Positions 402 through 44,405 of a DNA stretch of 64,000 bases are shown piece after piece. Below the pieces are notes generated by a model. That model ran no database searches, was not told where the DNA came from, and saw only the letters and a list, made by a program, of their open reading frames with translations. The translations under genes and the position numbers were made by a program. Source of the stretch: Sphingomonas astaxanthinifaciens DSM 22298. GTDB taxonomy: Bacteria; Pseudomonadota; Alphaproteobacteria; Sphingomonadales; Sphingomonadaceae. The stretch is from the NCBI RefSeq assembly GCF_000711715.1, contig NZ_JONN01000001.1:62001-126000 (forward strand), in the 5' to 3' direction. Positions within the stretch are counted from its first letter, which is position 1. The number at the start of each line of letters is the position of its first letter.

Positions 402-501
402 GGGGGGCGCCTTAGCGGGGCTGCGCGATTTGGCCAACGGGGCGCGGCGCTGAGGGGGCGACGTCCGCGAGCGTTCGAGGACGAGCGATGGCGCGTCCGC
501 G

Positions 502-519
502 AAGGTCACAAAGGTCACA
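502..519. repeat. Tandem 9-nt direct repeat AAGGTCACA x2
   Basis: AAGGTCACA occurs twice head to tail (502-510 and 511-519) in the 279-nt gap between purL and the first island gene. Nothing else is recognisable in this gap apart from hairpin repeat copy A at its right end. Function unknown; it may be debris of a dispersed repeat. Confidence 0.5.
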
Positions 520-630
520 GGGTCGCCGAGTAGTTTTTCGGTCCTGGCTGGCCACGATGTCAAAGAGCAAACAAACCGCTGAGGTTCATTTCAGCAGATG
601 AAATCCTACTTTTCAACGGGAAGAACGAAC

Positions 631-657
631 GTCCGCTTTCGACCCATTGCGGACATT
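631..657 (+). repeat. Hairpin repeat family A, copy A1
   Basis: GTCCGC (631-636), a 12-nt loop TTTCGACCCATT, GCGGAC (649-654), then ATT. The inverted arms can form a 6-bp stem. Read in frame the element encodes a V-(R/C)-F-R-P-I-A-D-I type peptide. It lies 23 nt upstream of the first small gene of the island. Eight further copies occur in the window. Confidence 0.85.
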
Positions 658-680
658 AGGACGCGGGCTATCCTCGCCTG

Positions 681-1124
681 ATGGTGAAATCAGCAGTGGC
701 CTATCGTGCCAACGGAAAAGTCGTCATCGCTCCGGTCATTCGGACGACGAGCGGTATTGGCCTTGAGGTCGACCCAAAAAGTTTGGGCGCTGCGCCCGAC
801 CAAGAAAGCATCGCTGGGACATTGGCCGAGGCTCTTGCTCGGTCTGATCGCGTCGTCCCGCAGCCCAGCCGCGACGAATGGAAGGGCCTATTCCAGCCCT
901 TTCTGACTGCGACGGGCGTGCGGAGCCACAAAGCATTTATGGACGGTGCGCAGCGCGTCAGCATCAGGGTGTTAGATCACCAGTTGAAGCTCACGCCGGG
1001 GCGCAATCTCGGCAGCAAAGAAGGTTTCGAACCGATACCGGACCAAGCGCAGTTGCACTCAGCGGATGACCTTCACAGTGCGGCGGCGGCCCTGCTTCGC
1101 ATGCTAAGCCCGTCAGCAGCATAG
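681..1124 (+). CDS. Hypothetical 147-aa protein, immunity-protein-like
   Basis: A soluble 147-aa protein with no signal peptide or membrane segment. The pattern is an N-terminal strand (VAYRANGKVVIAPV), a helix TLAEALARS, a central K-x-F segment, a strand pair VSIRVLDHQLKLTP and a C-terminal helix SAAAALLRMLS. This order resembles CdiI-type (DUF1436-like) contact-dependent-inhibition immunity proteins, which end in a short Leu/Ala-rich helix. I base this on remembered patterns only. ATG at 681 is the first in frame; no strong ribosome binding site precedes it. Hairpin repeats lie immediately upstream (631-657) and downstream (1136-1165). No toxin gene is adjacent, so if the assignment holds it would be an orphan immunity gene. 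Confidence 0.5.
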   Translation: MVKSAVAYRANGKVVIAPVIRTTSGIGLEVDPKSLGAAPDQESIAGTLAEALARSDRVVPQPSRDEWKGLFQPFLTATGVRSHKAFMDGAQRVSIRVLDHQLKLTPGRNLGSKEGFEPIPDQAQLHSADDLHSAAAALLRMLSPSAA

Positions 1125-1135
1125 GCTCGAAGGCT

Positions 1136-1165
1136 AATGTCTGCTTTCCACCCATAGCGGACATT
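1136..1165 (+). repeat. Hairpin repeat family A, copy A2
   Basis: AATGTCTGC, a 12-nt loop TTTCCACCCATA, then GCGGACATT: nearly perfect 9-bp arms with one T-G pair. It sits 12 nt after the stop of the preceding gene and 25 nt before the start of the next. Same orientation as A1. Confidence 0.88.
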
Positions 1166-1189
1166 GACGTAACACGTTACAAGTTGCTC

Positions 1190-1624
1190 ATGGCCTGGTC
1201 CGAGACACTTCTGCCCGACCATTTACTCGAACGCGCCACGCGTCGTGGCAATGAGCGCGCATGGCCTATCCACGATATACCGGAGGTGATTGAGGCGGCG
1301 AGGCAGGCCGACTTAGTGAGCGTCGGAGGTCAGTTACAGCTTCGTTTCCCCGAAGGCGGAACATGCGAGTGTTATTGGGTTGAGGTCGACACGTTCAAAT
1401 CAGTTTCTCCCAACCTGCCATGGCTCGAACGGGTGGAGCAAACGGCGGCAGCGGCGCGCTCGCAGTTCCAAAGGCTTCTCGACAAATATGACTTCACCGC
1501 AGAAGCGAGGTCGTCATTCGGAAAATACATGGATGAGTTCGTAGCGAAAGGCGGCGACATCAACGACGCCATCTACTTCGTCTGGTATTTGGCAGCTCAG
1601 CAGGACGCCTCTGAACGGGCGTAG
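1190..1624 (+). CDS. Hypothetical 144-aa protein, immunity-protein-like
   Basis: A cytoplasmic acidic protein with no signal peptide. The N-terminus MAWSETLLPDHLLERATRRG followed by NERAWPIHDIPEVIEAA, then VSVGGQLQLRFPEG, resembles small immunity proteins of polymorphic-toxin loci: an early W, a G-x-E-x-A-W stretch, a helix with E-V-I and a V-x-G-G strand. The resemblance is by pattern only. The C-terminal half is helical, with WLERVEQTAAAARSQFQRLL. I place the start at ATG 1190; a TTG two codons upstream (1184) is also possible. The gene is flanked on both sides by family A hairpin repeats, and its codon use is less GC-biased than that of the dcw genes. Confidence 0.5.
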   Translation: MAWSETLLPDHLLERATRRGNERAWPIHDIPEVIEAARQADLVSVGGQLQLRFPEGGTCECYWVEVDTFKSVSPNLPWLERVEQTAAAARSQFQRLLDKYDFTAEARSSFGKYMDEFVAKGGDINDAIYFVWYLAAQQDASERA

Positions 1625-1631
1625 TTTCAAT

Positions 1632-1658
1632 AGCGGCTTTCCACCCATAGCGGACACT
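1632..1658 (+). repeat. Hairpin repeat family A, copy A3 (degenerate left arm)
   Basis: AGCGGC, loop TTTCCACCCATA, then GCGGACACT. The right arm and loop match the family; the left arm has lost the GTC and no longer pairs well. It begins 7 nt after the stop codon of the 144-aa gene. Confidence 0.75.
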
Positions 1659-1766
1659 GGCGCCTACGAATTCGCCCTTAGGAGCCATGTGCTGTTGAGG
1701 CGGGCACGCTTCACCCGCTCCAAAGGTCAGAACCCAAGGGAATCGTCACAGCACGTCGATTTCCGG

Positions 1767-1794
1767 ATGTCTGCTTTCGACCCGTGCGGACATT
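1767..1794 (+). repeat. Hairpin repeat family A, copy A4
   Basis: ATGTCTGC, an 11-nt loop TTTCGACCCGT, then GCGGACATT. Same orientation as A1-A3. The roughly 110 nt between A3 and A4 hold no recognisable gene, so a cassette may have been lost there. A GTG-start membrane gene follows 34 nt later. Confidence 0.82.
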
Positions 1795-1828
1795 GCCCGA
1801 TCAATCCGCGGTGCTACGTTAGCTAGCT

Positions 1829-2116
1829 GTGGCATTGGTCTTTATCAGCCTATTCTTGGCGCCGATCGCTGCATTTGCGGTGGGGTGCTTATTGAGGCCG
1901 CCCCTTTGTAAACGTGCTCTCACGGCAATCCTTCTGGCCCCATTAATCGTTTATACTCTCTCGATGGCGAGCGCTGAACCGAGCGGTCCGGATTTTTGGA
2001 GCTGGTGGGCCGTGGGACTCCTCATGCTGGCGCTCCCCATGCTGGCCTCCTTCGCAATCACCGTGATTGGCTACCTGCTAGGTCGGACATTGACAGGTCC
2101 CGAGCGTCCGATGTGA
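1829..2116 (+). CDS. Small hypothetical membrane protein (95 aa)
   Basis: About three hydrophobic segments: residues ~3-22 (LVFISLFLAPIAAFAVGCLL), ~29-47 (ALTAILLAPLIVYTLSMAS) and ~60-87 (VGLLMLALPMLASFAITVIGYLLG), with a WSWW patch between the last two. This indicates a small inner-membrane protein. The start is a GTG at 1829; no ATG lies nearby and the ribosome binding site is weak. No family recognised. It belongs to the repeat-separated island, behind copy A4, and is followed 65 nt later by another small membrane gene on the same strand. Confidence 0.5.
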   Translation: MALVFISLFLAPIAAFAVGCLLRPPLCKRALTAILLAPLIVYTLSMASAEPSGPDFWSWWAVGLLMLALPMLASFAITVIGYLLGRTLTGPERPM

Positions 2117-2181
2117 GGGCCGAATTCGTCCCAAGGCAGACCTTCAGTTGCGCAAGGTGATGACGGCGCTAGTCTCTTCTC

Positions 2182-2439
2182 ATGAAAGAAGCTGGCGTGC
2201 GGCTGGCAGAAGCTGCCCTACTCTTCGCGGCGCTCTTGTTCACGCTGCCCTACGTTCCCTCGCATGAGATTGAGCGGCTGCCGCTACTACCGGCTGGCGC
2301 CATTGCAGTGGTGCTTTTCGCGGGAAGCCGAGTGCTTCGATGGCGAGAGCGCTACCTCCTCGCGGCCGCTGAGACGGTGGTGTTCGCGTTATTCGTGTGG
2401 GGATCGAACGCTATCGCGAACCTAGTCTACGCGTCCTGA
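2182..2439 (+). CDS. Small hypothetical membrane protein (85 aa)
   Basis: An 85-aa protein with three hydrophobic stretches: residues ~9-25 (AEAALLFAALLFTLPYV), ~36-50 (LLPAGAIAVVLFAGS) and ~60-82 (LLAAAETVVFALFVWGSNAIANL). A basic RVLRWRERY loop lies between the second and third. ATG at 2182. It is not related in sequence to the preceding membrane gene as far as I can see, and no family is recognised. Hairpin repeat A5 begins 17 nt after its stop. Calling it real rests on ATG, hydrophobicity pattern and its place in the array. Confidence 0.5.
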   Translation: MKEAGVRLAEAALLFAALLFTLPYVPSHEIERLPLLPAGAIAVVLFAGSRVLRWRERYLLAAAETVVFALFVWGSNAIANLVYAS

Positions 2440-2456
2440 TGCCTACAAGCGCGAGG

Positions 2457-2480
2457 GTCCGCTTTCCACCCATTCCGGAC
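2457..2480 (+). repeat. Hairpin repeat family A, copy A5
   Basis: GTCCGC, loop TTTCCACCCATT, CCGGAC. The arms pair with one mismatch. It is the last copy of the left island; the region to the right returns to ordinary GC-rich chromosomal genes. Confidence 0.82.
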
Positions 2481-2562
2481 AGTCGAGCTGGTGCCGGAAG
2501 GGTTGGACCGGACCGCCCCTCCACGTCCGGGTGATGACTCGCTCCGGCCACGCGAAAACAAA

Positions 2563-43888: not shown

Positions 43889-43920
43889 GGTTGCGAAGAA
43901 TGGCTCGCTACTCGCATGCC

Positions 43921-43944
43921 TGCAATGTGTGGAAAGCGGACGTT
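43921..43944 (-). repeat. Hairpin repeat family A, copy A8 (partial)
   Basis: TGCAATG, then TGTGGAAAGCGGACGTT. The GGAAAGCGGAC half matches the family exactly; the left arm is mostly lost, so no hairpin of the usual kind forms. It lies between two minus-strand genes. Confidence 0.65.
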
Positions 43945-43962: not shown

Positions 43963-44355
43963 TTAAACGAAAGTGACGGTCCGACAGGTGGCAAGGAGGT
44001 CGGCTCCATGAGCCGGCACAACTTGGAGCAACATGAGATTGCCGGAGCGAAGAGCCTCCTGTTTGCTGGACAAGTGGGCTCGCCAGTCGTTGTGGTAGCT
44101 CTCCGCAGCGGATGGATGTGGCGAGGGGTAAAGTCGCTCCCAATCAACGCCGTGCTGAGGGACTTCCTTCGAGCTTACTCCCGTGAAGACCACGATATTG
44201 CCTTCCCGGAAGTCACTAAGGTGTAGCGCATCAACGCCGGAGAGCCTGACTTCCCGCCTTGCCCCTTTCACAGTCGTGAAGTGGAGCTTGGCGTTTTTGT
44301 CCTTGAGCAAGATGCCATCGAACGTCGCATCGTGCAGGGGCAACTCGTCTAGCAT
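43963..44355 (-). CDS. Hypothetical protein (130 aa)
   Basis: ATG 44353-44355, MLDELPLHDATFDGILLKDKNAKLHFTTVKGARREVRLSGVDALHLSDFREGNIVVF. The first ~70 residues read as an antiparallel beta-rich domain (alternating pattern with HDATFDGI and KLHFTTVKG, typical of small proteins that begin 'LHDA.L.....D...':), followed by a helix SYHNDWRAHLSSKQEALRSG and a strand LMLLQVVPAHGADLLATCR. No signal peptide. The N-terminal 'LPLHDATF..I' resembles small immunity-like or DUF proteins whose role is unknown. It is flanked by repeats A8 and A9. Confidence 0.55.
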   Translation of the reverse strand: MLDELPLHDATFDGILLKDKNAKLHFTTVKGARREVRLSGVDALHLSDFREGNIVVFTGVSSKEVPQHGVDWERLYPSPHPSAAESYHNDWRAHLSSKQEALRSGNLMLLQVVPAHGADLLATCRTVTFV

Positions 44356-44378: not shown

Positions 44379-44405
44379 AATGTCCGCAATGGGTCGAAAG
44401 CAGAC
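44379..44405 (-). repeat. Hairpin repeat family A, copy A9
   Basis: AATGTCCGC-AATGGGTCGAAA-GCAGAC. Read on the minus strand it translates exactly as VCFRPIADI. It lies 23 nt upstream of the start of the 130-aa gene and is the right boundary of the island; the MATE gene starts 68 nt further on. Confidence 0.85.

Follow-up and report, generated by a model that had tools for sequence, protein, structure and literature searches.

Between purL and the next small gene, a 64,000-nt stretch of Sphingomonas astaxanthinifaciens DSM 22298 (contig NZ_JONN01000001.1, positions 62,001 to 126,000; hereafter the window) contains an island of small genes alternating with copies of one short inverted repeat. 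Going by sequence comparison, these repeats are probably the core recombination sites of a short tyrosine recombinase, and the island probably belongs to a cassette system that is integron-like but distinct. In the mechanism that we propose, the recombinase would act on sites built like dif or lox, with a short asymmetric centre flanked by two inverted arms. A unit would comprise a gene plus one site, or plus one pair of sites of the subtypes A and B described below; it would leave as a circle by recombination between two sites of the same orientation and enter at another site, which would yield arrays that read in one direction. In relatives, the recombinase gene sits between two arrays converging on it. 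The window island, whose sites are partly decayed, would be an array of this kind whose host genome has lost the enzyme or never possessed it. That the short enzyme acts on these sites, that the intermediates are circular and that units move in this direction is what we infer. Genomes like the source would keep enzyme-less arrays much as integrons have their CALINs (clusters of attC sites lacking integron-integrases), which PMC8618304 describes as integron-cassette arrays without an integrase. Below, G, C and L numbers denote genomes, contigs and loci, the source genome being G000.

Repeat sites and their arrays

The site is a 24-bp core within a 36-bp inverted repeat, with the consensus GCTAAT-GNCCGC-TTTC[C/G]ACCCATT-GCGGNC-ATTAGC in a scoring matrix trained on 157 copies from the first 41 stretches. 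Two subtypes differ at one central base, which is C in type A and G in type B. Those 41 stretches contain 309 sites above 6 bits and their reversed control none; across 71 stretches (1.16 Mb), 568 sites exceed 4 bits against one in the reversed control. Neighbouring sites less than 3 kb apart in the 71 stretches have the same orientation in 435 cases and opposite orientations in 36, which is the one-directional tandem array characteristic of integrons and CALINs; the orientation of the open reading frames (ORFs) is mixed. Among 94 runs, some of them cut by the ends of the fetched stretches, 64 begin with B and 74 end with A. Doublets, in which 8-14 bp separate the cores, are ordered A-then-B in 49 of 58 cases. 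Their centres lie mostly 35-37 bp apart in G007, G014, G017 and G073 and mostly 25-26 bp apart in G053 and G010, two spacing classes that differ by about one helical turn; G022 is mixed, and few doublets occur elsewhere.

The first-pass annotation of the window described five copies of a ~27-nt element (GTCCGC-12 nt-GCGGAC-ATT), all in one orientation, around four short plus-strand genes. The ORFs are there and all five copies do lie on the plus strand; the motif as written holds strictly for the first copy only, and the others deviate from it. When up to three mismatches are allowed, the window gives five matches, of which three are island copies (out of five) and two lie at 44 kb; 100 shuffles give none. 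The island is laid out as follows:

438..2550, plus strand: full extent of the insertion that separates purL from the next small gene, as estimated from empty sites of relatives
498..630, plus strand: leader preceding the first site, without an assigned ORF; found again ahead of B at a few other islands (L093; L100 in G031; L101 in G000 at C1:893.7k)
631..654, plus strand: site of type B, the island's first and a perfect copy (pattern match, matrix)
681..1124, plus strand: ORF 1, 147 aa, no known family (ORF list, Pfam, NCBIfam)
1139..1162, plus strand: site of type A (pattern match, matrix)
1184/1190..1624, plus strand: ORF 2, 144-146 aa (ATG at 1190), no known family (ORF list, Pfam, NCBIfam)
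1632..1655, plus strand: site of type A with a damaged left arm (matrix)
1769..1791, plus strand: site of type B, 23 bp, one base short (read by eye)
1829..2116, plus strand: ORF 3, 95 aa, hydrophobic by eye; Pfam matches weak, all below cut-off
2118..2141, plus strand: sixth, decayed B-like site between ORFs 3 and 4, visible only by alignment to L094 of G020
2182..2439, plus strand: ORF 4, 85 aa, hydrophobic by eye
2457..2480, plus strand: site of type A, the island's last (pattern match, matrix)

Homology to purL stops at 377-437 in relatives (furthest 437), with the exception of G031, where it continues to 657; past the island, it resumes at 2544-2556 in the closer relatives. The leader and first B site together (498-657, 160 bp) recur as a block at several islands, including the three just named, and are perhaps a unit without an ORF.

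The repeat had been read as a hairpin, which is doubtful as its working form. Pairing between the arms is near the expectation from base composition, with the clearest excess at positions 2/23 (0.68 versus 0.56); because the arms hardly covary, the sequences are more suggestive of double-stranded DNA recognised by a protein than of a hairpin under selection. An RNA or folded-strand element was likewise set aside as less likely in view of this weak covariation and the lack of any Rfam match at gathering score (window, L059 and L061). Pairing across A-B doublets showed no clear excess, with means of 4.84 and 3.84 of 6 within doublets against 4.87 and 3.52 between them. Nor did a common leader or tail emerge as the true end of the element: among the flanks listed, little is shared beyond the repeat save one leader family and known same-place pairs.

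In the whole source genome (2.53 Mb, 3 contigs), 21 repeat copies were found, with none in the reversed control. As many as 17 of the 21 lie within 1.5 kb of another copy, whereas 20,000 random simulations gave 0.47 on average and never more than 8. The copies are therefore not evenly spread over ordinary intergenic DNA; an even spread is what the first-pass annotation had named as speaking against cassettes.

Gain, loss and probable exchange of units

Cassette behaviour, proposed from the layout in the window alone, is supported by empty sites, by a shared border with different contents, by ORFs 1 and 4 being repeat-bounded at other loci and by unit homologies that end in repeats. A comparison of 16 purL-side intervals showed the island to be missing in several relatives: three of the intervals contain repeat islands, with the same orientation in L093 and the inverse one in L095 and L098, and the other 13 are devoid of sites. 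At the empty purL sites, the aligned flanks come within 2 and 4 bp of each other in G021 (L099) and G047 (L104) and within 66 bp in G004 (L103). The purL side of G031 has the leader and B site of the window, after which homology breaks immediately and other contents follow. Another island of the source genome, at C1:2.077 Mb, has its last A site and flank in common with G031, with different contents; in G011, this place is a near-clean empty site with borders ~36 bp before B and 8-16 bp after A. The same place in G021, G059 and G017 (L253, L255, L256) holds inserts of ~350-600 bp without recognised sites, and it seems to be a hot spot.

Single units also recur at other locations. Outside the source genome, ORF 1 has a single relative among the 71 genus genomes (E<=1e-5), at 52% in G004, where it lies between B and A at another locus. 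ORF 4 likewise has one (E<=1e-4), at 92% in G020, in a lone B-gene-A island at another locus; its unit is 92.5% identical to that of G020 at the DNA level, as against only 78-89% for the purL region of G020. Homology between units spans the gene and the site and not the site alone. In L077, there is a 754-bp tandem duplication, which is uninformative on the exchange point.

Units shared between arrays begin and end inside sites, mostly near the core centre. For units common to different arrays, we read the exchange in core coordinates, recording the closest difference on each side of the shared part, the one before it and then the one after it. These fall at 9 and 12 in L077/L080 (98% identity), at 11 and 21 in L076/L077 (97%), at 5 and 21 for a pair of L283 units, in A (97%; taken by eye from the strings of the sites), at 2 and 8 for two units of L090 (97%), and at 9 and 6 for two units of L281, in B (89%). 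One exchange point just after position 11 fits the L077/L080, L076/L077 and L283 pairs. The L090 pair places the exchange ahead of position 8. The L281 pair puts it at position 9 or later on the left and ahead of position 6 on the right, with later mutation possible at 89% identity. All five pairs would fit if exchange resolved anywhere over positions 6-11, like the overlap of a tyrosine recombinase. Because the sites share a consensus, these constraints are loose; rare bases that accompany the unit, at position 24 in L077/L080 and at position 9 in L076/L077, lend them support.

The contents of the units are diverse. A scan of 119 unit ORFs matched 43 Pfam families at E<=0.001, and of the 25 families listed all but one occur in a single member, among them Imm8, Imm27, a bacteriocin-protection family, VIT1, GFA, GST and ankyrins. 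The immunity families Imm8 and Imm27 are thus present among units of other arrays. For the window itself, the immunity role that had been assigned to two of the genes finds no support: ORFs 1-4 have no Pfam match above cut-off and no NCBIfam match at all. Where an ORF clearly has the orientation of the sites, its start codon lies a median of 27 bp after one site and its stop 6 bp before the next.

A short tyrosine recombinase within the arrays

A protein-family search uncovered tyrosine recombinases inside the arrays of G022. Their clade 1 (69-77% identity, or the query itself) is present in 16 of 61 genus genomes in a protein search, and all 16 of its loci (L120-L135) have sites within 1.5 kb. 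A second group at 52-58%, present also in repeat-less genomes, has such sites at 3 of 11 loci (L136-L146): ~50 bp from the gene in L137, a weak one at ~240 bp in L136, and one more than 1 kb away in L143. A partial relative in G007 (L149) has a site ~320 bp away.

The addition of G255 and G073 (another genus) brought clade 1 to 20 genes in 18 genomes. Within 3 kb of these genes, all 63 sites on the left read plus and all 63 on the right read minus, so that all 126 point at the gene. Arrays lie on both sides in 18 of the 20, the exceptions being G008 (contig end) and G011 (no right array). The site nearest the gene is of type A in 18 of 19 cases on the left and 16 of 19 on the right. A module of ~1 kb with the recombinase gene, present twice in G010 and also in G060, shows homology between these copies that ends at the flanking sites. 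Enzyme distance and site profile are correlated (Mantel rho 0.37, 1 of 5000 permutations; 17 of 20 loci with at least four sites; ancestry uncorrected). Repeat copy number is higher in genomes with the enzyme than in those without, with medians of 40 versus 11 (p=0.001), or 40 versus 19 when repeat-less genomes are excluded (p=0.018), again uncorrected for ancestry. In G022, a recombinase-bearing segment of 2.36 kb is found at two loci (L075, 3467-5822; L080, 7558-9911) with 91% identity and with its ends at sites.

R54, K82, H151, R154 and Y186, which we take to be the catalytic residues, are invariant in 17 clade-1 sequences; H177 is replaced in one of the 17 (L134). The fold matches XerA, XerH, Cre and IntI. 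By residues and fold, the protein is thus a tyrosine recombinase, of which it has the catalytic domain only, with no recognised core-binding domain before it (L120, full ORF from ATG and model; L121, matched part). Stop-to-stop frames of clade 1 span 182-316 codons, so that longer starts are possible in some. Simple recombinases, according to PMC8138268, have both a core-binding and a catalytic domain.

The window had been described as having no integrase nearby. This stands for the source genome, in which no member of the recombinase family was found at E<=1e-30 (its three PF00589 matches were not examined); for the system as a whole it does not, with the recombinase sitting in the arrays of relatives.

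Beyond the genus sample, genes at 54-55% in other genera have a site within ~105 bp in G249 (with an in-frame stop), G201 and G185; L235-L240 and L242 have none, and L241 has one distant weak site. In the best 80 of 589 relatives across the wider superfamily, 13 strict sites lie within 600 bp of the gene and 44 elsewhere (0.094 versus 0.036 per kb); there is no nearby site at 69 of the 80 loci. Related inverted-repeat sites, several per locus, accompany recombinase relatives in two Massilia (L160, L168), a proteobacterial metagenome-assembled genome (L196) and a sphingomonad (L208). Short tyrosine recombinases at 52-62% (L136-L146 and plasmid matches) occur on plasmids and chromosomes, mostly without an array.

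Alternative explanations and wider occurrence

Four other explanations have to be weighed. One is that the system is a variant integron with divergent attC sites folded as single strands, the islands being CALINs. The resemblance is real: like integrons and CALINs, these are one-directional arrays of small, mostly unknown genes with one site each, they involve a tyrosine recombinase, and some arrays lack the enzyme. The recombinase also matches general Xer- and integron-type models, far below their cut-offs; neither of the integron-integrase models TIGR02249 and NF011946 turned up among the matches for two clade-1 proteins, and TIGR02249 scores 25.7 bits on the clade-2 protein of L137, where the cut-off is 265. 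The boxes of attC are RYYYAAC and GTTRRRY. They flank 7 and 11 of 535 sites and both flank none, compared with 13 and 5 of 1420 random stretches, and an attC identity was rejected. Together with arms that scarcely covary, little sign of a selected folded strand, a short recombinase without a recognised core-binding domain in place of IntI, arrays that flank the enzyme on both sides (18 of 20 cases) instead of one, and several dispersed islands per genome, this makes a variant integron quite unlikely. A different possibility is that the host XerC/XerD moves the modules, as with the dif modules of Acinetobacter plasmids, the short recombinase being incidental. In both, the genes are delimited by short core sites, each with a short centre between inverted arms; PF00589 recombinases occur in 61 of 61 genomes, and many arrays are in genomes without the short enzyme. 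In the dif modules, as described in PMC13141974, sites alternate in inverse orientation. The neighbouring sites here are direct (435:36), their sequence is unlike the pdif table of PMC13141974, the arrays are chromosomal, and all 126 sites near the short gene point at it. A short recombinase is linked to arrays in 18 genomes and was not found in G000. Overall, movement of the modules by XerC/XerD with an incidental short recombinase is improbable.

Chance homologous recombination between the repeats, reshuffling genes with no dedicated enzyme, could draw on repeats that are direct and near-identical, on the 754-bp tandem duplication and on exchange points that vary between pairs. Against it, the repeats are short, the tightest pairs put the exchange in the core, and a recombinase gene is linked to converging arrays; we consider this account rather unlikely too. 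Short palindromes in many copies per genome with two subtypes would also suit a REP (repetitive extragenic palindrome) or miniature-transposon family lying beside genes and moved, for example, by a Y1 transposase. This is very hard to credit: PF01797 is present in only 3 of 61 genomes versus repeats in 50 of 61, on which ground the Y1-transposase model was dropped, copies form one-directional arrays, and the homology of units covers the gene as well as the site. FimB/FimE-like and plasmid-borne short tyrosine recombinases resemble the clade-1 enzyme in their ~200 aa, with relatives of up to 62% identity on plasmids; most of the examined relatives at 50-62%, unlike it, have no such site nearby.

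Several observations sit uneasily with a dedicated cassette system run by the short recombinase. Of the 50 genus genomes with repeats, 34 have no clade-1 gene; some of these are incomplete, and G014 (64 copies), G049 (73) and G032 (74) are among the 34. The association of enzyme with repeat presence has p=0.052 (ancestry uncorrected); XerC/XerD or a plasmid-borne enzyme could be acting in these genomes. Some genes of the 52-58% group also have a close site (L137, and a second G017 gene at 172 bp). The unit pairs fit no single exchange point, and the ORF 4 pair misfits on the left, where the decayed site of the window differs up to position 21. A opens 29 of the 94 runs (some cut by stretch ends), and the roles of A, B and the doublets are left unexplained by the model. 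In 153 units of 150-900 bp, the longest ORF is clearly site-oriented in 72, clearly opposite in 32, ambiguous in 48 and lacking in one. The sample also has one genome per species.

The textbook example of genes captured through site-specific recombination is the integron. We incline, with some reserve, to regard the arrays as a third natural cassette system, with a short one-domain tyrosine recombinase, lox/dif-like A and B sites and two converging arrays, which would have seeded many enzyme-less arrays over sphingomonad chromosomes and would have kin in Massilia and other Proteobacteria. No description of it was found in the parts of the open-licence literature covered, preprints excluded. 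If the system is real, a separately built cassette system would show that the principle of gene capture arose more than once and would help to explain the origin of sphingomonad orphan genes; its recombinase would be very small, and the form of its sites hints that they may function as double-stranded DNA. With arrays converging from both sides, the setting of direction and the choice between A and B sites become directly testable.

Repeats are present in 50 of the 61 genus genomes. In a sample of the family at up to two mismatches, 26 of 199 genomes have a match and 13 have three or more; some of those with one or two may be due to chance, since the reversed control gave four single hits in four genomes. 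Nine viral contigs have an exact site and 19 a recombinase relative at 46-59%, phage being a possible carrier. A plasmid of Sphingomonas daechungensis matches the site consensus at four places and is another possible vehicle.

The window has a second island, a single B-gene-A unit on the minus strand (44405-43918):

44382..44405, minus strand: site of type B, start of the second island (pattern match, matrix)
43963..44355, minus strand: ORF of the second island, 130 aa, no NCBIfam match
43918..43941, minus strand: site of type A, end of the second island (pattern match, matrix)

Elsewhere in the source genome, the ends of contig C2 overlap by 95 bp. One end of C2 shares 652 bp at 99% with the island at C1:893.7k, which may reflect a circular contig, a duplicated island or an assembly effect (L056, L057, L101).

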